Source: Exilispira sp. (GTDB taxonomy: Bacteria > Spirochaetota > JAAYUW01). Taken from it: DNA of 47,135 nucleotides. The notes beneath the pieces are model-generated. The model did no database searches. It was not told the origin of the DNA and saw nothing but the letters and a program-made list of their open reading frames with translations. Both the position numbers and the translations under genes were made by a program. The DNA is taken from positions 1-47,135 of the forward strand of contig JAAYUW010000087.1 in the NCBI GenBank assembly GCA_012517545.1, written 5' to 3'. Below are positions 371-34,769 of the stretch, one piece after another. The first letter of the stretch is position 1. Each line of letters begins with the position of its first letter.

Positions 371-979
371 ATGAGAAGAGATCCCTATGATGTACTTGAA
401 ATTCCAAAAAACGCAACTATTGATCAGGTTAAAGCCCGATATAGAGAGCTTGTAAAAAAATATCATCCAGATAAATATCAGGGAAATCCACTTGCCGATC
501 TGGCTGAGGAGAAATTTAAAGAAATTCAGCAAGCATATGACGAAATAATAGATGGAAAATATCAATCGAGCAATTACTCTTCAAGTTACTCCAACTATGA
601 TAATGGTTATTCTAGTGAATATCAAGGTAATTATGGCTTTAGTAAAGAATATGATGATGTCATTTCTATGATACAAAGTGGTAAATTTGCAAAGGCAAAT
701 ATGAGGCTAAATGAATTAAATCAACCTGATTCTGGTATATGGAATTACCTTAAAGCTGTTGTCTCAGCAAATCTTGGTGAACTGGATAAATCATTTACCT
801 ATATTAATAAGGCTATAAATCTTGAACCTGGTAATGCTTATTATCAAAGATTTCGGGAACAACTTGCAAATACTCAAACCAGGCCTTATTATGCTTCAAG
901 TTCACAAACAACTTCTTCTTGCATGGATTGCTTAACCTGTCTTTGTTTTGCCAATTGTTGTTGTAACGGATGCTCGTAA
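371..979 (+). CDS. J-domain protein with TPR-like middle and Cys-rich C-terminal tail
   Basis: N-terminal J domain with HPD (KKYHPDKYQGN); TPR-like ANLGELDKSFTYINKAINLEPGNAYY; tail SCMDCLTCLCFANCCCNGCS. SD-like aaagga upstream of ATG. Confidence 0.85.
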   Translation: MRRDPYDVLEIPKNATIDQVKARYRELVKKYHPDKYQGNPLADLAEEKFKEIQQAYDEIIDGKYQSSNYSSSYSNYDNGYSSEYQGNYGFSKEYDDVISMIQSGKFAKANMRLNELNQPDSGIWNYLKAVVSANLGELDKSFTYINKAINLEPGNAYYQRFREQLANTQTRPYYASSSQTTSSCMDCLTCLCFANCCCNGCS

Positions 980-16643: not shown

Positions 16644-18782
16644 CTAAAAGAAACTAACCTGTGTCATAACACTATAAGATGTTTGCTGTAGATAATTGCC
16701 AGATATATCTGGTATATAAAAAATAGAGTACGAAACATATATCTTAAAACCTTCTGAAACAGTATAACCAAGTATTATCTTCATAGAAAGATTCTCAAAA
16801 AAGTTAACTCCTTCCACAAGAAAATCTGGTTTTACAAGCTCTAAAGTTCCTTCAAATGGAGGTAAAAGCTCATCAGATAATGTAACTCCTGCTGTTAGAA
16901 AATCGTTTGCAAGGGTACTTGTAGTTTGCTGGTAGAAATAGTGAGCCCATGATGCATATCCAGTTATCTTCTTATCAAACAGATCAAACTGCGCCTCAAG
17001 GAACAAACCAGATTTAGCGCCTGAAATTAAGGAAGAAAGAGCTGAAAAATCTAAAGGATTTGTGTTTGTGGTAAAGTATGAAACATAGTCACTTCTTTTT
17101 TTATAGTAGTCTATGCTAAATATTTGAGGAATATACTCACCTGCCAGCATCCTGTATTCTGCGCGATAATTGATAAATAGTATATTTCCTCTAAGTCCGG
17201 CGAAGATACCGTAACCATTGGTTATATAAAATGGATTTTCTGCATCATTAGAGTTCATTACATAGTTAACACTTAGATCTCCGAATCCTATAATTGTCAA
17301 AAAGTTCTGGGTTTGAATAATAGGAAACGTTAAACCTGTGGCTAAAGAACCATAAACAGGCTCAATACTTGTTTCATCATATAAAGGTGTAAGATCACCG
17401 GTAAATTCAAAACCTAAATATAAAGGTACATTTTTAATAAACTGAAAGTAAGGTCTAATACCGACAACTCCTGGTTTTGTAAGCTGATCTATGGCAAGAT
17501 TCAAACCAAAACCTTTAAAAAGAAGGTTCATATTTACACCAAGTCGTCTTACATAAGGGAAATCGTACATATTGGAATAAAGATAAAGGTTCATACCATT
17601 ACCAAGTATAAAATCATCAAACTGGCCAAATTTTAAGAAAAATGGATCATCCGGGTAATTTATTCTGAAATATCTAAAAATTGAGAGAATCTTGCCTGTA
17701 GAATCAAGGACCTCTCCAAAGCTACCCCAGGTTAGATGATAACTTTCATAGTTGTACCAGGATTCTGGATTAAATAGATCATTTCCATAAATTATAGGCA
17801 TATAAAGAGCAAAACCAATCTTCCCAAAATCAAATTCGGCATCTACGGTAAATGTCGACCATACTTGATCATCAATAACTGTCGAGCCAAAATCACCTAT
17901 AAAATTTAAATACTTATCAAGCCATTTTTCAAACTCTGATTTGACCTTTTGTTCAGCTTCCTGCTTTTCCTGTCCGGTCAACTCTGTAGTTTGTGTTTGT
18001 TGCTCCTGATTGGTCTGTTCATTTTGTTGACCTTCTGCTGGAGTTCCATTTTCTTCTTCTGGTGGTTCACTTTCTATATCCTGCATACCGCCTTCTGTTC
18101 CTGTTTGATTGAACTCATCGAGTGCTTCAGAAGTAATATCTGATATAGTTGATAGAACTGAGTTCGCAGCAACACTAACCATCTGACCTGCATTGAGAAA
18201 ATTTGAAGGTATAGCACCCAATGGACCAACAGCAACTTGACCCTTAAAAACAAGTATATCCATCAAGGAACCTGAAGGACCATCTTTTACATTGACTCCA
18301 AAAGATGTGCCTCTAACAGAGGCTACACCATTGTTTGTAATAATCTGGAATGAAGAGTTACCCGTTAATTTTGAAACAAAAGCCATAATCTTGCCTGTAA
18401 AGAGTTTGAATATCCCTTGTTTCTGCTTGGATTGTGAATCAAAATTCCAGGTCTCAATAAGCAAATCTGACCCTGGACCTATTTTAAGAACTGATTTGTC
18501 CTGTAAAAGGATCTCAATAGTGGAATCTTTGCCAGTTTTTATCCTTGTAGGAGCTTTCAACTCCTGGTTAACCTGAGCCTTTGCAAAAACTGGAGCTGCT
18601 GTGGAAGCTGTTTCACCAAAGGCAATCTGAACATCACCAATATATACCTTAACCAGACCTGTTGCCGGTGGTGGTACGGGTTGTTGACTTGCTGCTTGCC
18701 CCGAAACAAAACTATTTGTTGCAAAAAATAAGACGAAAATCAGGCATATAAGGATCGAAATATTTACGCATTTCTTAAACAT
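16644..18782 (-). CDS. FecR-domain protein fused through a Gln/Glu-rich linker to an outer-membrane beta-barrel-like domain
   Basis: Signal peptide; FecR region LKAPTRIKTGKDSTIEILLQDKSVLKIGPGSDLLIETWNFDSQSKQKQGIFKLFTGKIMAFVSKLTGNSSFQIITNNGVASVRGTSFGVNV; QNEQTNQEQQTQTTE linker; aromatic beta-rich C-terminal half ending ...MTQVSFF. SD ggagg. Confidence 0.8.
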   Translation of the reverse strand: MFKKCVNISILICLIFVLFFATNSFVSGQAASQQPVPPPATGLVKVYIGDVQIAFGETASTAAPVFAKAQVNQELKAPTRIKTGKDSTIEILLQDKSVLKIGPGSDLLIETWNFDSQSKQKQGIFKLFTGKIMAFVSKLTGNSSFQIITNNGVASVRGTSFGVNVKDGPSGSLMDILVFKGQVAVGPLGAIPSNFLNAGQMVSVAANSVLSTISDITSEALDEFNQTGTEGGMQDIESEPPEEENGTPAEGQQNEQTNQEQQTQTTELTGQEKQEAEQKVKSEFEKWLDKYLNFIGDFGSTVIDDQVWSTFTVDAEFDFGKIGFALYMPIIYGNDLFNPESWYNYESYHLTWGSFGEVLDSTGKILSIFRYFRINYPDDPFFLKFGQFDDFILGNGMNLYLYSNMYDFPYVRRLGVNMNLLFKGFGLNLAIDQLTKPGVVGIRPYFQFIKNVPLYLGFEFTGDLTPLYDETSIEPVYGSLATGLTFPIIQTQNFLTIIGFGDLSVNYVMNSNDAENPFYITNGYGIFAGLRGNILFINYRAEYRMLAGEYIPQIFSIDYYKKRSDYVSYFTTNTNPLDFSALSSLISGAKSGLFLEAQFDLFDKKITGYASWAHYFYQQTTSTLANDFLTAGVTLSDELLPPFEGTLELVKPDFLVEGVNFFENLSMKIILGYTVSEGFKIYVSYSIFYIPDISGNYLQQTSYSVMTQVSFF

Positions 18783-18794
18783 AATAACCTCCTA

Positions 18795-20051
18795 CTAGAA
18801 ACTTAAACCTGTTTGAAGTTGAGTTGATGCGATAGGATTACCATCTTTATCCCACGTAATCTGGTATACTAACGATACAGAAGAAGTATCCCCAACATTC
18901 AAACTAAGAATAAAAAGTATATATGAATTTAATAGCGCATTTGAAGACCAATTCAACAAATCTCCAAAATTTGTTATACCAGATCTTATAAACATCCCTT
19001 CAAGTGATAAAATCTTAAGAACTGATTTATCCAATTTGAGTGAACCTATAAGAGTAAGCGGGCTACTTGAAAAATCACCACGCATCTCAAAATATAAAGA
19101 AAAGATATCCTGACCTATAAGTAGAGATGCGAAAGTTCTCCAGCCAACAGTAGATATTAAAGAATCTAAATATTGAAACTTTGAGTTTCTAACATCATAG
19201 TTTTCATATAGAATATCAAAATATTGGTTTGTAAATTTATCGCCGAAAAGATCAAGTGCAAGTCCCATATACACCAGCTTAAATAAATAAGCATTTACTC
19301 CTATCTCAGTTCCATTTCCTTTATCTAAAATCATGGCCCAATCAGCATATCCGTACATATAAACAGCATCTGACTGAAGAAAAGGAACTTCAAGATCGAG
19401 ACCAATAATATTTACAGTACTGGATGCTGAATTATCTTCAAGATTCATATCCTGTGCCTTTGTTTCCATAGGATCTGAATCAAGAGCATAGGTGAAACCT
19501 ATTTTAATATTTGATAAAATAGGAATCTGTAAGAAAAGCAAGGGCCTTGAATAAAGTCTAAAAGCCATTATATCTGGATCAAGAAGGTTATCGATAAAAG
19601 ATTCAACACCAAGATATGGAAAGTTGAAGATATTACCGTCTAAATCCAGTTCAAAACCAAGTTTTCGTATTTCTGGAAAGTAAAGCATATTTGTATAATT
19701 ATACATTATAAGACCATGACCAAGAACAACATTTTTAAACATACCTATTTGAGAGTAAAGTGGATCTCCTTTAGTACCATAACGAATGTATAAAATTTTA
19801 TTCATCCAATCGGCAAAACTATCCCAATTGTCTGAAACAATATTAAAATTTTCATCAAACATAAAAAAAATATCAAGTCCTATACCAAATTTACCAAATG
19901 ATAAATCAGGTTTAAGGCTAACTGTCTGATATGTTGTACCGTTATAAACTATAGTTCCCAAACCAAGATTAAAACCAAAATCAAAAGAACTTTGAGCAAA
20001 TACTGGAATAGCTAAAAAAAAGATAAGTGATAAAAGCAACAGCTTTCTCAT
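18795..20051 (-). CDS. Outer-membrane beta-barrel-like protein, paralogous to the barrel half of the neighbouring FecR fusion
   Basis: Signal peptide MRKLLLLSLIFFLAIPVFAQ; C-terminal Phe (TQLQTGLSF); YSQIGMFKNVVLGHGLIMYNYTNMLYFPEIRKLGFELDL parallels LKFGQFDDFILGNGMNLYLYSNMYDFPYVRRLGVNMNLL. SD ggagg. Confidence 0.75.
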   Translation of the reverse strand: MRKLLLLSLIFFLAIPVFAQSSFDFGFNLGLGTIVYNGTTYQTVSLKPDLSFGKFGIGLDIFFMFDENFNIVSDNWDSFADWMNKILYIRYGTKGDPLYSQIGMFKNVVLGHGLIMYNYTNMLYFPEIRKLGFELDLDGNIFNFPYLGVESFIDNLLDPDIMAFRLYSRPLLFLQIPILSNIKIGFTYALDSDPMETKAQDMNLEDNSASSTVNIIGLDLEVPFLQSDAVYMYGYADWAMILDKGNGTEIGVNAYLFKLVYMGLALDLFGDKFTNQYFDILYENYDVRNSKFQYLDSLISTVGWRTFASLLIGQDIFSLYFEMRGDFSSSPLTLIGSLKLDKSVLKILSLEGMFIRSGITNFGDLLNWSSNALLNSYILFILSLNVGDTSSVSLVYQITWDKDGNPIASTQLQTGLSF

Positions 20052-26171: not shown

Positions 26172-26984
26172 CTATTCCTTATAATACACAGAACTATTTT
26201 CTATCTTTAGATATTTAAAATTATCTGAAATGGCATATAATGTTTCTGCATGTCCTATAAAAAAAAATCCTCCTGAAATTAAAGAATTGTAAAAATTTTT
26301 TACAATTTGTTTTTGTATATCTCTGCTAAAATATATCATAACATTTCTACAAAATATTATGTCAAGCTCCGTGGGGAAAATATCTGTAAGAAGATTATGC
26401 TTTTTAAAGGTTATTCTATTTTTAAGGTTTTTATCAATATGATACTTATCATCTGTATCTTTATAAAAATACTTTTCCATGATTTCTGGTTTAACATATT
26501 TTAATTTTCTTTCAGGATAGATACCTGTTTTTGCAGCTTCGATGACATCCGAATTGATATCAGTGGCTAAAATATCGACCTTGGAATAAAAGCCAAGTTC
26601 CTTTGCAACAATTGCAATTGAATAGGGTTCTTCACCAGTAGAACATCCTGCACTCCATATTCTCGCAAAACCTTTTCTATTTATAATAAGTGGTAAAATG
26701 ACCGAGGACAATGCTTCAAGCTGAGTTTCCGATCTAAAAAAATATGTTTCGTTTGTAGATATTACATTTAAGAAATATTGGACTTCATCTTTATGTGATA
26801 AGAGGTAATCGTAATAATCTTCGTAACTTTTAATATTCAGTGCATTTAGCCTTTTTCGAAGCCTATTTGATAAAAGAACGACCTTTGATTCCTTCATATA
26901 AATGCCACAAAGCTGATAGATAAGCTTTGTAAACTTTTCAAATAATTCACGAGAAATAAGTTCTTCCACTGTTGTTTCATTCAT
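26172..26984 (-). CDS. cheR: Chemotaxis protein methyltransferase CheR
   Basis: NETYFFR, RIWSAGCSTGEEPYSIAI, ILATDINSDVIEAAKTGIY, DIIFCRNVMIYF. Confidence 0.95.
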   Translation of the reverse strand: MNETTVEELISRELFEKFTKLIYQLCGIYMKESKVVLLSNRLRKRLNALNIKSYEDYYDYLLSHKDEVQYFLNVISTNETYFFRSETQLEALSSVILPLIINRKGFARIWSAGCSTGEEPYSIAIVAKELGFYSKVDILATDINSDVIEAAKTGIYPERKLKYVKPEIMEKYFYKDTDDKYHIDKNLKNRITFKKHNLLTDIFPTELDIIFCRNVMIYFSRDIQKQIVKNFYNSLISGGFFFIGHAETLYAISDNFKYLKIENSSVYYKE

Positions 26985-27448
26985 CTTTTTTCGATTATTT
27001 CTTCTTCTTTCTCCGTAAAAATAAGCCTTTCAATATTTAAAATTATAATTAATTTTTCATTCACCTTCCCTATACAGAGTATAAAATCAGATTTAATACC
27101 AGAGACTGTAGGCAAAGAAGGTTCTATCTGAGAACGATTTAAAGTAATAACCTCTGAAACAGTATCAACAATAAAGCCAAATTTTCTATTGTTTAAAGCA
27201 ACGATTATTATCCTGGTCTTATTTGTGTATTCAACCTGTTCAGCCCCGAATCTTTTCCTTAAGTCAAGTATAGGTATTACCGAACCTCTAAGATTTATTA
27301 CTCCTTCTACAAAAGGTGGAGAGTTAGGAATCCTTGTGGGAACCATATATTTCTCGATATAATCGACATATGATATCGGGATGGCATAAGTTACTTTACC
27401 TATAGTAAATAGAATTATTTGAAGTTCATTAATTTTATTCAAATCCAT
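26981..27448 (-). CDS. cheW: Chemotaxis coupling protein CheW
   Basis: FTIGKVTYAIPISYVDYIEKYMVPTRIPNSPPFVEGVINLRGSVIPILDLRKRFG. Confidence 0.95.
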   Translation of the reverse strand: MDLNKINELQIILFTIGKVTYAIPISYVDYIEKYMVPTRIPNSPPFVEGVINLRGSVIPILDLRKRFGAEQVEYTNKTRIIIVALNNRKFGFIVDTVSEVITLNRSQIEPSLPTVSGIKSDFILCIGKVNEKLIIILNIERLIFTEKEEEIIEKR

Positions 27449-28297
27449 TTACTTCTCCTCTGCTTTTTTTATTTCCCTTTTTAATGTATTATATATATCT
27501 TTTGCTTCAACTAAAACTTTTTTATCTGGATCATTTAAAAGATTGTAAATCTTTTGTAAAACAAGTTCTTTATCATTTTTATTCAAAATTTTTAATGCAT
27601 AAAGTCTAACATCAGAAGATTCATCTTCAAGATATTTAACACAAATTTCGCTACCTTTTTCACAGAAATTATCATTTAATAGATTTAAAACTGTAAGTTT
27701 TACATTTTTTGAAGAATTCAATAAAAAGCTAAAAAGATCAGCAAATACCATATTTCCATAACTTTTTGCAAGAAGTTTCAAAATAAACATCACATTTTCT
27801 TCTATTTTTTCATTCTTTATAAATCTGACAAGTATGGAGTATGCAATTCGATGGTCCTTCTTTATTAAAGCTTGTGCTGCACTTTGTTGCGTATATATAT
27901 TACTTGAATGAAAAAGCCTTTGCATAAGTTCAGCAAATGAAAGATTTAAAGTTGATTCATCAATTTTATATTCTTTTATTAATTTCTTATTTGTATCTCC
28001 AAGCTTTTCCTTGACAGAATTATCAAGTTTTATAAATATGTCAGAAAAATTGTTCTTAAAAAGCTGAATTTTATATTGATCTTCAATAGCAATATCATAT
28101 TCCAGCCTGGTTTTCGAGTTAGATAATACTGAAAAAGCCTTACTTATAGTTTTAAACATCTCTATTGCAGATGGATCCTTATTTCTATCTGGATGAAATT
28201 TGAAAACAAGTTTTCGATATGCTTTTTTAATCTCTTCAGTTGACGAATCAGGAGTAACATTAAGTATTGAATAGTAATCCTGAATTATCTCATTCAT
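27449..28297 (-). CDS. J-domain protein with HEAT-like C-terminal repeats (start MNEIIQDYY after aaggagg)
   Basis: DYYSILNVTPDSSTEEIKKAYRKLVFKFHPDRNKD (HPD) followed by HEAT-like SSDVRLYALKILNKNDKELVLQKIYNLLNDPDKKVLVEAKDIYNTLK. Confidence 0.85.
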   Translation of the reverse strand: MNEIIQDYYSILNVTPDSSTEEIKKAYRKLVFKFHPDRNKDPSAIEMFKTISKAFSVLSNSKTRLEYDIAIEDQYKIQLFKNNFSDIFIKLDNSVKEKLGDTNKKLIKEYKIDESTLNLSFAELMQRLFHSSNIYTQQSAAQALIKKDHRIAYSILVRFIKNEKIEENVMFILKLLAKSYGNMVFADLFSFLLNSSKNVKLTVLNLLNDNFCEKGSEICVKYLEDESSDVRLYALKILNKNDKELVLQKIYNLLNDPDKKVLVEAKDIYNTLKREIKKAEEK

Positions 28298-28377
28298 CTT
28301 CTCCTCCTTGAATAAAGATGAAAACTTTTCACTTTTTAGAATCAACAGGAGCTAGATTTTTCAAATGTGATATAAAA

Positions 28378-30129
28378 TCAACCCAATAATCCTTTCATCA
28401 GATACTCTTTTTCTGTATAATCTATTTCATCTTGATAAAAAAGTAATGCATCATAATAATTTTTGAGCTGTTCGTATGTTGCAATATTTATATTTTCTTC
28501 TATCTCTTTGAGCAACTCAATTATTTCATTCTGGATCTCAAGAGAGTATTTCAATCTGTTGACTTTTTCAATAATTCTATTTTTAACATGTTTAATATCA
28601 CTTCGTAATCTTATCTTTTCTTCAAATTCAAGATCTTCTCTTTCAAATTCTCTTGCATTTTTAATTATATTATGAATATCGGATAATTTAAGCGAATTAG
28701 GACTTGTATTAACGGTAATCGTTTGATTTGCTTTTGTATCTTCATCGATGGCTGAAACTGTTAATATTCCATTTACATCCAATGCAAATGTAACTTTTAT
28801 CCTTGGCTCACCAGCTTTTGCCTGTCTTATATTATGAAGTGAAAAGGTTCCAAGTTTATAGTTTTCACTGCATAGTTTCCTTTCACCCTGGTAAATATTT
28901 ATTTCTACCACTTTTTGATCATCTGCAATGGTCGTAAAAAGTTTTGAGTTTTCACAGGGAATTTTGGAGTTTCGATCAATGACTGGAATAAATAAACCAC
29001 CCGTCACTTCGACTCCAAGGGATAATGGGGTAATATCAACAAGTATAACATTATCGATATCACCTGACAATATTGCTCCCTGTATCGCAGCTCCCATGGC
29101 AACGACTCTATCAGGGTCCACTGTTTTTGATAATTTTTCTTCCGTAAAAAGATTCTTTAATCTAAGCTGTATAAGGGGTATTTTTGTTGAACCACCGACA
29201 GGTATGACAATATCTATATCAGAGGGATTGAGATTGCTATCGGATATTACTTTTTTTACTATATCCATGGTATAATCAACATATTTTTCAATCATTTGTT
29301 CAAATTCTGATCTTTCTAAAGTATATTCAAGATGTATAGGACCTTTTTCATTTGCACAGATAAATGGGATAGAGATTTTTGCAACCTTTTCGGTTGAAAG
29401 TAATATTTTTGCTTTTTCAGCAGCATCATATAGCTTGGACATTGCAAAATTATCTTCAGAAAGATCTATACCGTGTTGCTGGCTAAAAACTTTTAGCAGC
29501 CGATTAACAATTTTATTGTCAAAATCAAGACCGCCAAGCATATTATCACCACTTGCAGCAATAACATTAAACATGCCATCGGTAATATCAACTATAGATA
29601 CATCGAAAGTCCCACCCCCAAAATCATAAACCAGAACTAAATTATTTTCAGTTTTCGTTAATTCGTAAGCAAGACACGATGCAGTTGGTTCATTTATTAT
29701 TCTAATAACATCAAGTCCAGCCATTTCTCCAGCTTTGACAGTTGCTTTTCTCTGAACTTCATTAAAATAAGCTGGAACAGTAATAACAGCTTTTTTAATA
29801 TCCTGTTTTATGTACCTTTGTGCATCATTTTTTAAACTTTTTAAAATAAAAGATGCAATATCGATAGGGGTATAATTTTTACCATCAATATTATAGATCT
29901 TTTCTGTTCCCATAAACCTTTTAACAGATGACACAACATTTTTAGAGTCAATGATCAGTTGATTTTTAGCTGCTGTACCAACAAGAATATTGTCAATAGA
30001 TTTTATATAAACAAAGGAAGGGGTAAGAGTTTCTCCTTCTTCATTCTTAATCATCGTTATTTCTTGATATTCATATATAGCACAACAACAATTTGTAGTT
30101 CCCAAATCTATACCCAATACAGGCTCCAT
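28378..30129 (-). CDS. Hsp70/DnaK-family chaperone, compact (583 aa)
   Basis: GIDLGTTNCCCAIYE, INEPTASCLAY, VYDFGGGTFDVS, VIPVGGSTKIPLIQ, full NBD and SBD; no acidic disordered tail. Confidence 0.93.
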   Translation of the reverse strand: MEPVLGIDLGTTNCCCAIYEYQEITMIKNEEGETLTPSFVYIKSIDNILVGTAAKNQLIIDSKNVVSSVKRFMGTEKIYNIDGKNYTPIDIASFILKSLKNDAQRYIKQDIKKAVITVPAYFNEVQRKATVKAGEMAGLDVIRIINEPTASCLAYELTKTENNLVLVYDFGGGTFDVSIVDITDGMFNVIAASGDNMLGGLDFDNKIVNRLLKVFSQQHGIDLSEDNFAMSKLYDAAEKAKILLSTEKVAKISIPFICANEKGPIHLEYTLERSEFEQMIEKYVDYTMDIVKKVISDSNLNPSDIDIVIPVGGSTKIPLIQLRLKNLFTEEKLSKTVDPDRVVAMGAAIQGAILSGDIDNVILVDITPLSLGVEVTGGLFIPVIDRNSKIPCENSKLFTTIADDQKVVEINIYQGERKLCSENYKLGTFSLHNIRQAKAGEPRIKVTFALDVNGILTVSAIDEDTKANQTITVNTSPNSLKLSDIHNIIKNAREFEREDLEFEEKIRLRSDIKHVKNRIIEKVNRLKYSLEIQNEIIELLKEIEENINIATYEQLKNYYDALLFYQDEIDYTEKEYLMKGLLG

Positions 30130-30161: not shown

Positions 30162-30644
30162 TTACTTGACTATCCTTTTAATCATTTCATAGTATGAAAT
30201 TGCGAATTGAACTTCACCAGAAAGTTTTCCAAGTTTTTGAGCGATTTCATCAACACTAAAACCATTTGAGAACATTTTATATGCTGTTTCCTGCCAGTTC
30301 AAATCCAGCTTTTCATCAACTTTTTCCTTATTTTCTTCTTTTTCCTCTTCTAAATCTTTAATATTAATTTCGTTTAAATTATAATGTTCTAAACTTTTTT
30401 TTATTTTTTCTAACTTTTTTATCTTTGTATCAATCTGTTTAATTTTGTCTTCAAGTATGGATATATTTCGGTCAGCTTCTTCATTAAAAGCCGAAATTAT
30501 ATCTTTCATTTCCGAAATAAGATCATTTTTGACATATTCTTTTTTAACCTTATTTATCTTATCATTCAATATGAAATAAAATATCAAACAAACTGATATG
30601 GTTAAAAGAATTATTGTAAGTGTCATTTTTATTTTCCGATTCAA
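30162..30644 (-). CDS. Membrane-anchored coiled-coil protein with C-terminal DUF6115/DUF2802-like motif (start uncertain: TTG 30644 or ATG 30626)
   Basis: N-terminal TM helix, K/E-rich coiled coil, C-terminal YKMFSNGFSVDEIAQKLGKLSGEVQFAISY. Confidence 0.65.
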   Translation of the reverse strand: MNRKIKMTLTIILLTISVCLIFYFILNDKINKVKKEYVKNDLISEMKDIISAFNEEADRNISILEDKIKQIDTKIKKLEKIKKSLEHYNLNEINIKDLEEEKEENKEKVDEKLDLNWQETAYKMFSNGFSVDEIAQKLGKLSGEVQFAISYYEMIKRIVK

Positions 30645-30657
30645 TTTAATGATTAAT

Positions 30658-30810
30658 CTAAAAAGATTCTTTATTTTCCAGGTTATTTTCTTCTTTGCTA
30701 AAATTTATGGTAACCTTTATAAAGGACTTAAAATGTTGTATTCTTAAAAATAAATCTACAATATCAATTAACCTTAAGTAAAAACGAAGAGCACCTTCCC
30801 GTGAAATCAA
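30658..30810 (-). CDS. Unannotated 50-aa ORF (TTG start), directly upstream of the coiled-coil gene
   Basis: Read by hand: (M)ISREGALRFYLRLIDIVDLFLRIQHFKSFIKVTINFSKEENNLENKESF*; aggag 8 nt upstream of TTG; stop 13 bp from the next start. Confidence 0.35.
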   Translation of the reverse strand: MISREGALRFYLRLIDIVDLFLRIQHFKSFIKVTINFSKEENNLENKESF

Positions 30811-30853
30811 TTAATGGCTCTCCTGCAAAAAGATAGATTTTGATTTTTCTTCT

Positions 30854-30870
30854 GCTCTTCTATGAAGAGC
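30854..30870. repeat. Perfect hairpin GCTCTTC-TAT-GAAGAGC in a cluster of GAAGAGC/GCTCTTC motifs
   Basis: Motif copies at 30786, 30854, 30864, 30893 and 30961. Confidence 0.85.
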
Positions 30871-31335
30871 CTATTTCTTCTTGCTCTTCTTAAGGTTTGT
30901 AATATTTTCTCTTATTTTACTATTTATAATCCCTATAGTAATTACTATCAATAGAAAAATGAAGAGCCTTTTTTGTTTTCTTTTTTGCAGGCTAGAGCCA
31001 TTAAGGCCTTTTCAAGGCGGTTTACGCGCTCCTGCATGTACCAGTTAGATAGTTTTTTCTAAATTTATACCTTATTTCAGGAGCGCCATTATTTAATTCA
31101 AATATTGTCATTTTATAATTATTAATATTCAACAAAAAATGAGTAGTTATTTAGAAAGATTCATCAACTCAAGTTTCGCGCTTTTTTTTATGAATGTTTA
31201 TAAACAAACCAAATAATAGGCAATTTATAAATTAAAAATTGCTGATAATTTTTTTATTAAAGAAAAAAATTCCACTTTCGATAGTATTGCAAAAAATACT
31301 TTCCCCGAACTTCAGACTTTTAACTTTTGACTGTA

Positions 31336-31638
31336 TTATATTTTTTTTTCAAAAGTGTGTTCATCTTCATTTTCATTGTTATAATATTGATTTTTTCTTT
31401 TTCTACCCTTATTTTCATCATATTTCTTAAATTTTTCTATCTTTGATAATTTGTTTTCATCATCCTTTATTTTTTCAATAGACGCTATACCATCTTTCTT
31501 CTGGATGGATATTTCGCTTGACTTCTTTTCCTGTATTTGTTTAATTATAGCTTCTGAATTCTGACTCAAGGAGATGCTTTTAGAAAAATTATCCAGCCGG
31601 GCAATCATATTCTGAATGTCTATAGGTCTTATAGGCAT
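31336..31638 (-). CDS. Small charged protein of the flagellar locus (MPIRPIDIQ N-terminus)
   Basis: MPIRPIDIQNMIARLDNFSKSI... plus K/E-rich tail; immediately downstream of the FapA-like gene. Confidence 0.6.
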   Translation of the reverse strand: MPIRPIDIQNMIARLDNFSKSISLSQNSEAIIKQIQEKKSSEISIQKKDGIASIEKIKDDENKLSKIEKFKKYDENKGRKRKNQYYNNENEDEHTFEKKI

Positions 31639-31649
31639 TTTAACTACCT

Positions 31650-33617
31650 TTACAATTTATTTCTTAAAGATAGTATCCTCTTATCAAATAATTTTCTATC
31701 AACATTTGGAGGTTCATAAGGTTTCGATCTTATGTTATTATCAACATATGTTAGAGTGCATGATCTGAGTTCATTGTTCGTTTCATATGGTTGCATTCCT
31801 GGCTTGAATACAATGGAGACACCCGGGTACAAAATATTTTTTACAGAAACCTTTCCTTCAAGATTAAGTTGATTTATTTCATGATTTAGTTCATCAATTC
31901 TTGCTAAAATATCTTTGAAAGACTGCTCCAACTGTGGCAATTGTTCCATTTTATCCTTTAAAAGTTGCTCTTTTTCTGGATTCCAGTTTTTGCGCATCCT
32001 TCTTTGAGTATTTAAGGTTGAAATATCTCTTTTAAAATCATCAATCTCATTTTCAAGTTTTTTCTTTTGAATCATGATTTCGTTTAGCTCTATCCTCATC
32101 TTTGGATAGATTCCTATTTCAACAAGAGTATCGGTATATGAAACTGTACCTAAGTTCTTTGTATTGACTTCAAGTCCAGCTCTTATTATCCCACCACCTA
32201 TTTGTGCTCTATGTCCAAAACATATAATTGCATCATTTGCATTTACTTCAGAATGCATTATATGATCATCTACTATAATAGAAACACCTGCGTATACTTT
32301 TGCATTTTCAATGTACTTTGTATATACACTTCCTTCTGCAGATATAAAGGCTTCAGAATGACCAGCAATACCTTGAGCAATATAAATATCATGATCCGAG
32401 ATAATTTCACATTTTCCAACACTTCCTCTTATCTCTATATTACCTTTTGCCTTTACAGAAAATCCATCAAGAACAGAACCATGTACTACAACGGAGCCAA
32501 CATATGTAATATTGCCAGTTTTTATATCAACATCCTGATTTATGTGTTTCACAGGTTCAACACAAATTTTGCCTGCTTTTTTAACAACATGTCCATCTAT
32601 CGCAGCCCTTAAAAATTTACCATCAGGAGATAACTCTGTATTAGCACCAGCCATGATCTGTCTATCAACACCTTTTCTAGCTGGTAGAAGTTTACCTGTA
32701 ACAGTATAACCATCTTCACCAGCAATTGCCGGTATCTTCTCACAAATAAGGTCTCCTTTTAAAACATTCTGGATATTTCTTATAATGTTTTTAAAATCAA
32801 ATTTATCCTCTGCAATCGCACGATATACTGTCTTTTCGCCGTTGGGATCAAAATACATCTTAATCTCAGCATTCTGCCCATGAACTGGTTGTTTTGCTCT
32901 TGCTACTACCATCTCTTTATATTCAATCTTTTCATCAGCCATCTTTGTAACAACTTTATCCAGTATTCCGTAACTAACTCCAGCCATCCTAATTTCAGAT
33001 TCGATCTCTTCAGGTGTAAGTTCATAACCTCTTGTTTTGGGAGGAAAAAGTATAGCCGTAGCTGTCATCTCATTTATACCTATACTTACCTGAACAGTTG
33101 CAGAGTTTTCTTCTATTCCATCAAAAGCTCCAACTATTATATATTGTCCCGTAGGATTTGCAACGGCCTGTTTTACAAGATTTAAATTGTAATTTTCAAT
33201 CCCTTTGGATCTGAATCCATCAAGAACTTCTTTAAGTTTTACCTGCCTTCCACCCTTTGCGGCTGGTGTAACTTTAAGCAAAACGCCATTTCTGCTCTTG
33301 ATAATAGCAAAATATCCATCCTTACTTTCTGTAATTTCATCTTCGTAAATTTCCTGAGCTTTTTCTACCTCTTCTTCTACATTGATTGTTTTTGCAATTG
33401 GTCTTTTATAAGCCAATATTTTGTAATTTTTCTTAACAAATCCAGCCATCCCTTTTGAGCCATATTCAAGAATCTCGTAATCTATTTCATCTATAGTAGC
33501 TCTTAGCCTTTTACAAGCCTCGGATATAGCTTTTTCTAAAGTTTCTGCAACTACCTCTATCTTTTTAGAATCCACCCCAAAATCTATCGATCTTAAAGCT
33601 TCCTTTAATTTATCCAT
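31650..33617 (-). CDS. FapA-like (DUF342) protein with N-terminal Jag-N-like domain
   Basis: N-terminus VVAETLEKAISEACKRLRATIDEIDYEILEYGSKGMAGF; DUF342 beta-helix region ...VVHGSVLDGFSVKAKGNIEIRGSVGKCEIISDHDIYIAQGIAG...; coiled coil. Confidence 0.88.
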   Translation of the reverse strand: MDKLKEALRSIDFGVDSKKIEVVAETLEKAISEACKRLRATIDEIDYEILEYGSKGMAGFVKKNYKILAYKRPIAKTINVEEEVEKAQEIYEDEITESKDGYFAIIKSRNGVLLKVTPAAKGGRQVKLKEVLDGFRSKGIENYNLNLVKQAVANPTGQYIIVGAFDGIEENSATVQVSIGINEMTATAILFPPKTRGYELTPEEIESEIRMAGVSYGILDKVVTKMADEKIEYKEMVVARAKQPVHGQNAEIKMYFDPNGEKTVYRAIAEDKFDFKNIIRNIQNVLKGDLICEKIPAIAGEDGYTVTGKLLPARKGVDRQIMAGANTELSPDGKFLRAAIDGHVVKKAGKICVEPVKHINQDVDIKTGNITYVGSVVVHGSVLDGFSVKAKGNIEIRGSVGKCEIISDHDIYIAQGIAGHSEAFISAEGSVYTKYIENAKVYAGVSIIVDDHIMHSEVNANDAIICFGHRAQIGGGIIRAGLEVNTKNLGTVSYTDTLVEIGIYPKMRIELNEIMIQKKKLENEIDDFKRDISTLNTQRRMRKNWNPEKEQLLKDKMEQLPQLEQSFKDILARIDELNHEINQLNLEGKVSVKNILYPGVSIVFKPGMQPYETNNELRSCTLTYVDNNIRSKPYEPPNVDRKLFDKRILSLRNKL

Positions 33618-33787: not shown

Positions 33788-34591
33788 TTAATTAATATTT
33801 TTCGAAGCAGGGATCTCACCTATTATCCTGGAAATTTTAGCCCTTAATCTCATCACAGCCTTTGTATGAAGCTGTGAAACTCTTGACTCTGTGATATCAA
33901 GGACTTCACCGATTTCTTTAAGTGTAAGTTCTTCATAATAATATAGAATAAGAACCTTTTTTTCCTTATCTGGTAACTCTTTTATAGCTTTCGCGAGAAT
34001 TTTTGTTATTTCTTCTTTTTCAAGAATTTGATCAGGGTTTTTGTGTGGTGGAGCTTCTATTGTGCTGATAACCTCAATATTTTCACCATCTTTCATATTT
34101 TGATAGTAAATATCGGTAAGACTAACAATTGTGGTAGGGTTGACTTCTATATACATATCTTGAAGTTCTGCAACTGATACTCCAAGCTCAGAAGCTATTT
34201 CTTCATCAGTCGCAGGGAAACCTTTTTGAATTTCTATTTTTGCCATGGCTTCTTCTATCCTTCGACTTTTCGTTCTTATAGTTCTAGGGATCCAGTCCAT
34301 ATTGCGAAGTTCATCATAAATAGATCCCTGAATTCTGGTCATAGCATAAGTATTGAATTTGATATTTTTTGTTGGATCATATTTTTCTATTGCATCTAAT
34401 AAACCTAAAGAACCATAGCCAATAAGATCATCAAACTCAACAGAGCCCTTTATCTTATAACCTATCTTTCCTGCAATATGTTTAACCAGGGGAGCATATT
34501 TTCTAACAAAATACTCTCTTAGTTTTTCATTTTTGGTTTCTTTATATTCAATCCATAATTCCTTTTCATCCATTTTATCATATGAACTCAT
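33788..34591 (-). CDS. fliA: RNA polymerase sigma factor, FliA/WhiG family
   Basis: FDDLIGYGSLGLLDAIEKYDPTKNIKFNTYAMTRIQGSIYDELRNMDWIPRTIR; LPDKEKKVLILYYYEELTLKEIGEVLDITESRVSQLHTKAVMRLR. Confidence 0.95.
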   Translation of the reverse strand: MSSYDKMDEKELWIEYKETKNEKLREYFVRKYAPLVKHIAGKIGYKIKGSVEFDDLIGYGSLGLLDAIEKYDPTKNIKFNTYAMTRIQGSIYDELRNMDWIPRTIRTKSRRIEEAMAKIEIQKGFPATDEEIASELGVSVAELQDMYIEVNPTTIVSLTDIYYQNMKDGENIEVISTIEAPPHKNPDQILEKEEITKILAKAIKELPDKEKKVLILYYYEELTLKEIGEVLDITESRVSQLHTKAVMRLRAKISRIIGEIPASKNIN

Positions 34592-34769
34592 CAACCCTCC
34601 CAGGATATTAATAAATTTAAAATAAAAAATTATACGAGAAGTTCAAAATTTTATATAAAAATTCATAAAAGTCTATTTTTATAAAAAACAATTCTAAAAA
34701 AACTTATATATATTAAAAATGCAATAATAATTTATAAATAAATTGCTCAATCAGGAAAACTAAATCTTT

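Follow-up and report, generated by a model that had tools for sequence, protein, structure and literature searches.

A conserved Hsp70/J-HEAT gene pair beside flagellar and chemotaxis genes is a probable motility chaperone of spirochaetes

We propose that DnaK2, an Hsp70 paralog, and J-HEAT, a J-domain protein with a HEAT-like C terminus, are a dedicated Hsp70/J pair for flagellar or chemotaxis components, kept together with the flagellar superoperon and with chemotaxis genes, a reading to which we assign a probability of roughly 0.6 on the basis of gene order and conserved residues. The pair is real and conserved and most likely motility-linked, the chaperone is probably dedicated to the motility machinery in these spirochaetes, and, as far as the literature searched shows, it is new as a described variant. 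How the intra-envelope flagella of spirochaetes, which are needed for motility, are assembled, numbered, and placed is partly understood, and a pair that occurs across family-level lineages and matches by position the last, apparently uncharacterized gene of the Borrelia flgB superoperon is a defined candidate for a motility role.

Gene organization of the window

The window, a 47,135-nucleotide stretch of an Exilispira sp. contig, carries on its minus strand the gene order fliA-fapA-100-aa gene-TM-HTH-dnaK2-J-HEAT-cheW-cheR-(248-aa protein)-cheD-cheA-cheY-cheB, in which cheY and cheB were assigned by reading the sequence, without a profile scan. The genes of the pair are intact, and the features around them are as follows.

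26172..26984, minus strand: cheR (Pfam CheR, 205.4 bits), with a 4-nt overlap with cheW
26981..27448, minus strand: cheW (Pfam CheW, 134.1 bits), its ATG immediately after the J-HEAT stop
27449..28297, minus strand: J-HEAT, a J-domain protein of 282 aa with a HEAT-like C terminus (Pfam DnaJ and HEAT_2, ribosome-binding site, ortholog starts, alphaRep profile match)
27485..27964, minus strand: HEAT-like region of J-HEAT, with the family motif LSxxELxxRLxxSxN
28094..28279, minus strand: J domain of J-HEAT, with the HPD motif
28378..30129, minus strand: DnaK2, an Hsp70 paralog of 583 aa (Pfam HSP70, site table, tree)
30162..30644, minus strand: TM-HTH, a flagellar-locus protein, DUF6115-like (below the Pfam cut-off, which the f35 homolog passes)
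31336..31638, minus strand: 100-aa gene in the yjfB position (no Pfam match)
31650..33617, minus strand: fapA (Pfam FapA, 224.7 bits)
33788..34594, minus strand: fliA, sigma-28 family (NCBIfam FliA_WhiG, 268.9 bits)

The original prediction had cheW-cheR following the Hsp70/J pair directly, and this was borne out. No CIRCE site was found in the genome with up to 3 mismatches allowed, and a search for sigma-28-like sites (3 mismatches) returned six versus 1.1 expected, none of them just upstream of the pair.

The segment between the yjfB-position gene and the TM-HTH gene (30645-31335) contains a dispersed repeat that has 51 matches across the genome, its partial copies being up to 95% identical and centered on two subregions. 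It abuts the 5' end of the TM-HTH gene, which in the window starts at a TTG lacking a clear ribosome-binding site; in genome G001 the same junction spans a few nucleotides. Elsewhere in the window, a third J-domain protein (371-979, plus strand; 202 aa, no further Pfam domain) lies directly upstream of a LytB-family gene (970-1854), and a FecR-domain protein (16644-18782, minus strand) adjoins a 418-aa protein (18795-20051, minus strand) whose start is signal-like and which matches nothing in Pfam; these last two are also found in genome G003, downstream of the che genes.

DnaK2 and the housekeeping DnaK system

DnaK2 is, as originally described, a complete 583-aa Hsp70 without an acidic tail. 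It matches Pfam HSP70 with 582.7 bits over residues 4-558 and comprises a complete NBD, a VILVD linker, SBD-beta, and a lid (lid region of 103 aa); the presence of D8, K70, P143, R151, E171, D194, T199, and D393 places it in the Hsp70 superfamily. Its scores fall short of the equivalog cut-offs for housekeeping DnaK (TIGR02350, 610.8 versus 822.55; NF001413, 626.3 versus 648), and with no grpE at the locus, no subdomain-IB insert, and no acidic tail, it does not match the spirochaete DnaK1s either. The missing insert had escaped the original prediction, and the residue at the Ala429 position is Ile. HscA was ruled out as an identity (TIGR01991, 474.2 versus a cut-off of 708.55).

A canonical grpE-dnaK-dnaJ system, for which the original prediction had proposed a check, is present elsewhere in the genome and rules out DnaK2 as its only DnaK. 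This system is split between two contig ends: contig C76 carries grpE and breaks off within dnaK, and one end of contig C82 has the remainder of dnaK along with a type I dnaJ, the two dnaK pieces overlapping by residues AVG (...EVVAVG / AVGAAIQ...). The encoded DnaK1 has an acidic tail and is about 41% identical to DnaK2. GrpE is single in the genome and sits on C76, in agreement with the earlier statement that no grpE is near DnaK2.

A site table of 27 DnaK2-type and 22 housekeeping DnaK sequences gives the signature of the paralog. The subdomain-IB insert of about 22 aa is absent from all 27 and present in all 22, and Ala429, a substrate-arch residue in E. coli DnaK, is found in every housekeeping sequence, versus I, V, L, or T in every DnaK2-type one. 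D8, K70, P143, R151, E171, D194, T199, and linker residue D393 are kept in both sets wherever covered. The DnaK2-type linker is mostly xLVD, versus LLLD, and is eroded in families f30, f35, f37, and f40; the window lineage has a full lid, most of which is missing in f5, f12, and f35. In a tree of 63 sequences, built by a quick method and containing several long branches, the housekeeping DnaKs form one clade (SH-aLRT, 100) with the DnaK2-type sequences outside it; one DnaK2-type protein (G015) branches beside the housekeeping clade (93) and yet bears the DnaK2 signature. Judged from the tree and the site table, DnaK2 is a spirochaete paralog that separated long ago from the housekeeping DnaK. 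The Hsp70s of f13, f20, and f26, which have very long branches and no recognized flagellar neighbors, were excluded from the family. Likewise not counted were a degenerate Hsp70 in G029 (f23; L232:9405-10922), in which IDFGAINIK and GGGGIRAS replace the phosphate loops, possibly reflecting loss of the ATPase, and the J-HEAT-like gene that follows it (L232:8822-9415).

The TTNCCCA stretch with three Cys residues is present in DnaK2 (codons at 30090-30082), but its reading as a mark of specialization did not survive comparison with orthologs, which read NSCC, NSSC, NSVA, RSSC, and NSAV. As the middle Cys is canonical (DnaK1 of the same genome reads TTNSCVA) and the ortholog residues vary, we regard the triplet as a peculiarity of this genome and discarded it as a functional mark.

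J-HEAT combines a J domain with a HEAT-like region

The prediction of a J-domain protein with a HEAT-like rather than a client-binding C terminus was confirmed by profile scores of 82.6 bits for Pfam DnaJ (cut-off, 27.8) and 33.6 bits for Pfam HEAT_2 (cut-off, 27.7), which identify J-HEAT as both a J-domain co-chaperone and a HEAT-like repeat protein. H-P-D is invariant across the alignment, and the G004 ortholog also exceeds the HEAT_2 cut-off. Pfam returned DnaJ and HEAT matches only, the zinc finger and client-binding CTD of class I/II proteins being absent, and the DnaJ_bact score (79.4) is below its cut-off of 377.2. The start, previously placed at TTG 28345 (298 aa), was moved to ATG 28297 (282 aa), which is preceded by AAGGAGGAG and matches the start used by the orthologs in G001, G002, and G003; the TTG adds 16 residues.

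The motif LSxxELxxRLxxSxNxYVxxxAAxAL is common to families f1 through f32, and in the alignment S20 does not vary. Among solved structures, designed alphaRep proteins, which are HEAT-like, match the family profile (E values of 1e-35 to 1e-28), and the J protein of G124, which was left out of the profile, scores 37 bits against it. An AlphaFold model of J-HEAT alone is all-helical and of low confidence (mean pLDDT, 57), and in a structural comparison it comes closest to HEAT/ARM-type solenoids, at E values of 0.01 or worse, a result that fits the HEAT-like assignment without proving it. A genome-collection scan with the window DnaK2 found no relative, and one with the G124 DnaK2 found non-spirochaete matches only; the J genes read beside those matches encode type I or other client-binding DnaJs and include no J-HEAT, although such scans may omit near records and are compatible with J-HEAT in other phyla.

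Conservation across spirochaete families

DnaK2 lies beside flagellar or chemotaxis genes in 10 spirochaete families, in 8 of which J-HEAT is there too. Its commonest site is directly after the TM-HTH gene that ends the flhA-flhF-flhG-fliA-fapA superoperon, and TM-HTH is its most constant neighbor. The window gene order is repeated in G002 (same genus), in G003 (same order), and, on a short contig, in G001. Because the order recurs within the genus, within the order, and in other families, the arrangement is more than chance, and the objection that the association might not be conserved in relatives fails.

The layouts vary around this theme. Families f30, f12, and f40 have flhF-flhG-fliA-fapA-TM-HTH-DnaK2-J-HEAT, and in f40 the J gene is followed by one for a CheA-like Hpt/HATPase protein; f14 has fapA-TM-HTH-DnaK2-J-HEAT; f3 has TM-HTH-DnaK2-J-HEAT-cheW-cheR(-cheA); and in f5, DnaK2 is with cheD-cheR-cheB. 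In the survey that the original prediction had proposed, of J-HEAT genes next to cheW, the pair is conserved with motility genes, and cheW-cheR follows it directly in f1, f2, and f3 only. DnaK2 is with TM-HTH but has no adjacent che gene in f30, f35, and f37 and, up to the contig limits, in f12 and f14. Close spacing recurs, with TM-HTH/DnaK2 overlaps of 1 to 4 nt in f35, f37, and f40 and DnaK2/J-HEAT overlaps in f2 and f40. At the superoperon end in f37 and f35, no J-HEAT was seen after DnaK2 (the G092 contig stops about 180 nt past DnaK2).

Where J-HEAT stands apart from DnaK2, it adjoins two flagellin genes (G058 and G105) or a TM-HTH homolog near flhA-flhF-flhG (G051) or precedes cheW-cheR-cheA (G045); no flagellar or che neighbor was seen for the J-HEAT of the other two f28 genomes (G080 and G110). 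In f28, DnaK2 is among housekeeping genes, apart from J-HEAT, and in f25 and f32 the pair itself is among housekeeping genes, with cheD-cheR about 3 kb off in G064. As a control, the housekeeping dnaK regions of 14 of the DnaK2 genomes had no flagellar or che neighbors within about 5 kb, once a 31-bit TM-HTH match in G124 and a G004 sigma factor with 70 bits to FliA were set aside.

No second DnaK was found at an E value of ≤1e-80 in many genomes having flhA, a survey that reports matches at this threshold only, so that divergent DnaK2s may escape it. FlhA was present in 40/40 genomes tested, including those in which no second DnaK was found, and the presence of flagella is therefore uninformative as a correlate. 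As flhA occurs in genomes where no second DnaK was found at this threshold, the pair looks accessory, which suggests that it is not needed for spirochaete flagella generally.

A reduced DnaK2 in the Borrelia-like group

Family f35 has the order flhF-flhG-x-fapA-x-TM-HTH-Hsp70, with no fliA between flhG and fapA. The B. burgdorferi flgB superoperon spans bb0294-bb0264 and includes flhF (bb0270), flhG (bb0269), flgV (bb0268), and fapA (bb0267), and sigma-28 is reported to have been lost in this species (PMC11607428); the text of that paper makes no mention of an Hsp70 in the superoperon. From the f35 layout, the position of bb0264, the last superoperon gene, matches flhF-flhG-flgV-fapA-x-TM-HTH-Hsp70, and on this basis we infer f35 to be the Borrelia group, with its Hsp70 at the bb0264 position. 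The Lyme disease group would then apparently be among the spirochaetes that keep DnaK2 by motility genes. We found no functional paper on bb0264 in the literature searched. A transposon study places "HP70" among undisrupted core chaperones and describes "DnaK-1" as disruptable, with equivocal intermediate infectivity (PMC3485029). This DnaK-1 may be BB0264.

The f35 protein is unlike the window DnaK2 in being 497 to 503 aa long and lidless, with Arg167 changed to Ala, an eroded linker, and no J-HEAT found. Through Arg167, DnaK is known to contact the J domain. This residue is Arg in 24/27 DnaK2-type sequences; the exceptions are two genomes of f35, with Ala, and f37, with Lys. The noncanonical J proteins examined in G092 (f37) and G128 (f35) include no J-HEAT, and the families without J-HEAT are the only ones with Arg167 changed. 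Since f35 and f37 share one tree clade, together with the J-HEAT-bearing G124 and G061, the Arg167 change and the J-HEAT loss may represent one event or two. This contrast between a full chaperone with J-HEAT and a lidless form without it bears on which Hsp70 parts a dedicated role needs. Speculatively, spirochaetes may have developed a flagellar Hsp70 machine of their own, with J-HEAT as the adaptor selecting a client from the periplasmic flagellum or from chemotaxis, and the Borrelia-like Hsp70, having lost the lid, linker hydrophobicity, the J-contact arginine, and J-HEAT, may now bind or act as a scaffold in flagellar assembly independently of a J protein.

Proposed function and alternatives

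In the mechanism that we propose, the HEAT-like solenoid of J-HEAT would capture a specific protein of the flagellum or of chemotaxis; the J domain, through HPD, would hand this client to DnaK2 and trigger ATP hydrolysis via the conserved Arg167/linker route; and DnaK2 would fold, hold, or remodel the client while the periplasmic flagellum or the chemosensory machinery is being assembled, with nucleotide exchange probably provided by the single genomic GrpE. The physical pairing is deduced indirectly, from Arg167 and HPD conservation, gene adjacency, and co-loss, the class of client, the step of action, and the sharing of GrpE are likewise deduced from sequence and gene order, and a position among motility genes can also reflect co-regulation or inheritance instead of common clients.

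The latter idea underlies the alternative of a general auxiliary Hsp70/J pair with broad clients that lodged early in the spirochaete flagellar superoperon and shares its regulation but not its clients. The housekeeping surroundings of the pair in f25 and f32, the separation of DnaK2 from J-HEAT in f28, and the secondary DnaK plus type I DnaJ pairs without flagellar genes in Aminicenantes and others would fit such a history, which we nevertheless consider unlikely, as J-HEAT retains flagellar or che neighbors when split from DnaK2, the partner is a HEAT adaptor rather than a DnaJ for general client binding, and both the substrate arch and the lid have changed. A narrower alternative, in which the pair folds or assembles CheW, CheA, CheR, or receptors of the chemosensory array, draws on the J-HEAT-cheW-cheR junction in f1, f2, and f3, on G045, where J-HEAT-cheW-cheR-cheA stay together without DnaK2, and on the che genes beside DnaK2 in f5 and after the J gene in f40. 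It appears improbable given that DnaK2 in f30, f35, and f37 lies at the flagellar superoperon end with no che gene adjacent and that TM-HTH is the more constant neighbor. The original prediction of a specialized pair acting on chemosensory or flagellar components is accordingly upheld as to a conserved pair distinct from the housekeeping system, and its chemosensory pointer finds weak support.

A third alternative is that DnaK2/J-HEAT tunes flagellar expression or number control (e.g., through FliA, TM-HTH, or FlhF/FlhG) instead of folding structural parts. The site directly after fliA-fapA-TM-HTH, the TM-HTH/DnaK2 overlap in three families, and the lidless members with degenerate linkers, which resemble sensors or scaffolds more than refolding machines, are compatible with a regulator, but the Borrelia-like group retains DnaK2 with no fliA between flhG and fapA (sigma-28 loss, PMC11607428), and we regard this explanation as very improbable. 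We favor a chaperone pair dedicated to flagellar or chemotaxis components.

Comparison with known systems

The housekeeping DnaK-DnaJ-GrpE system shares with DnaK2/J-HEAT the Hsp70 fold, the catalytic and linker Asp residues, SBD-beta, and a J partner with HPD, and the best solved relative of DnaK2 by sequence is a DnaK (2v7y). The two systems differ in that Ala429 is replaced in DnaK2, HEAT repeats stand in J-HEAT where DnaJ has a zinc finger and CTD, and the operon is without grpE. SglK and StkA of Myxococcus xanthus are likewise Hsp70 paralogs and act in surface motility and exopolysaccharide (PMC8265645; PMC4319316); that motility depends on type IV pili and exopolysaccharide and not on flagella. 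By domain layout, J-HEAT recalls RME-8, a large eukaryotic endosomal protein in which a J domain is likewise joined to a helical-repeat scaffold, a resemblance that we offer as a lead.
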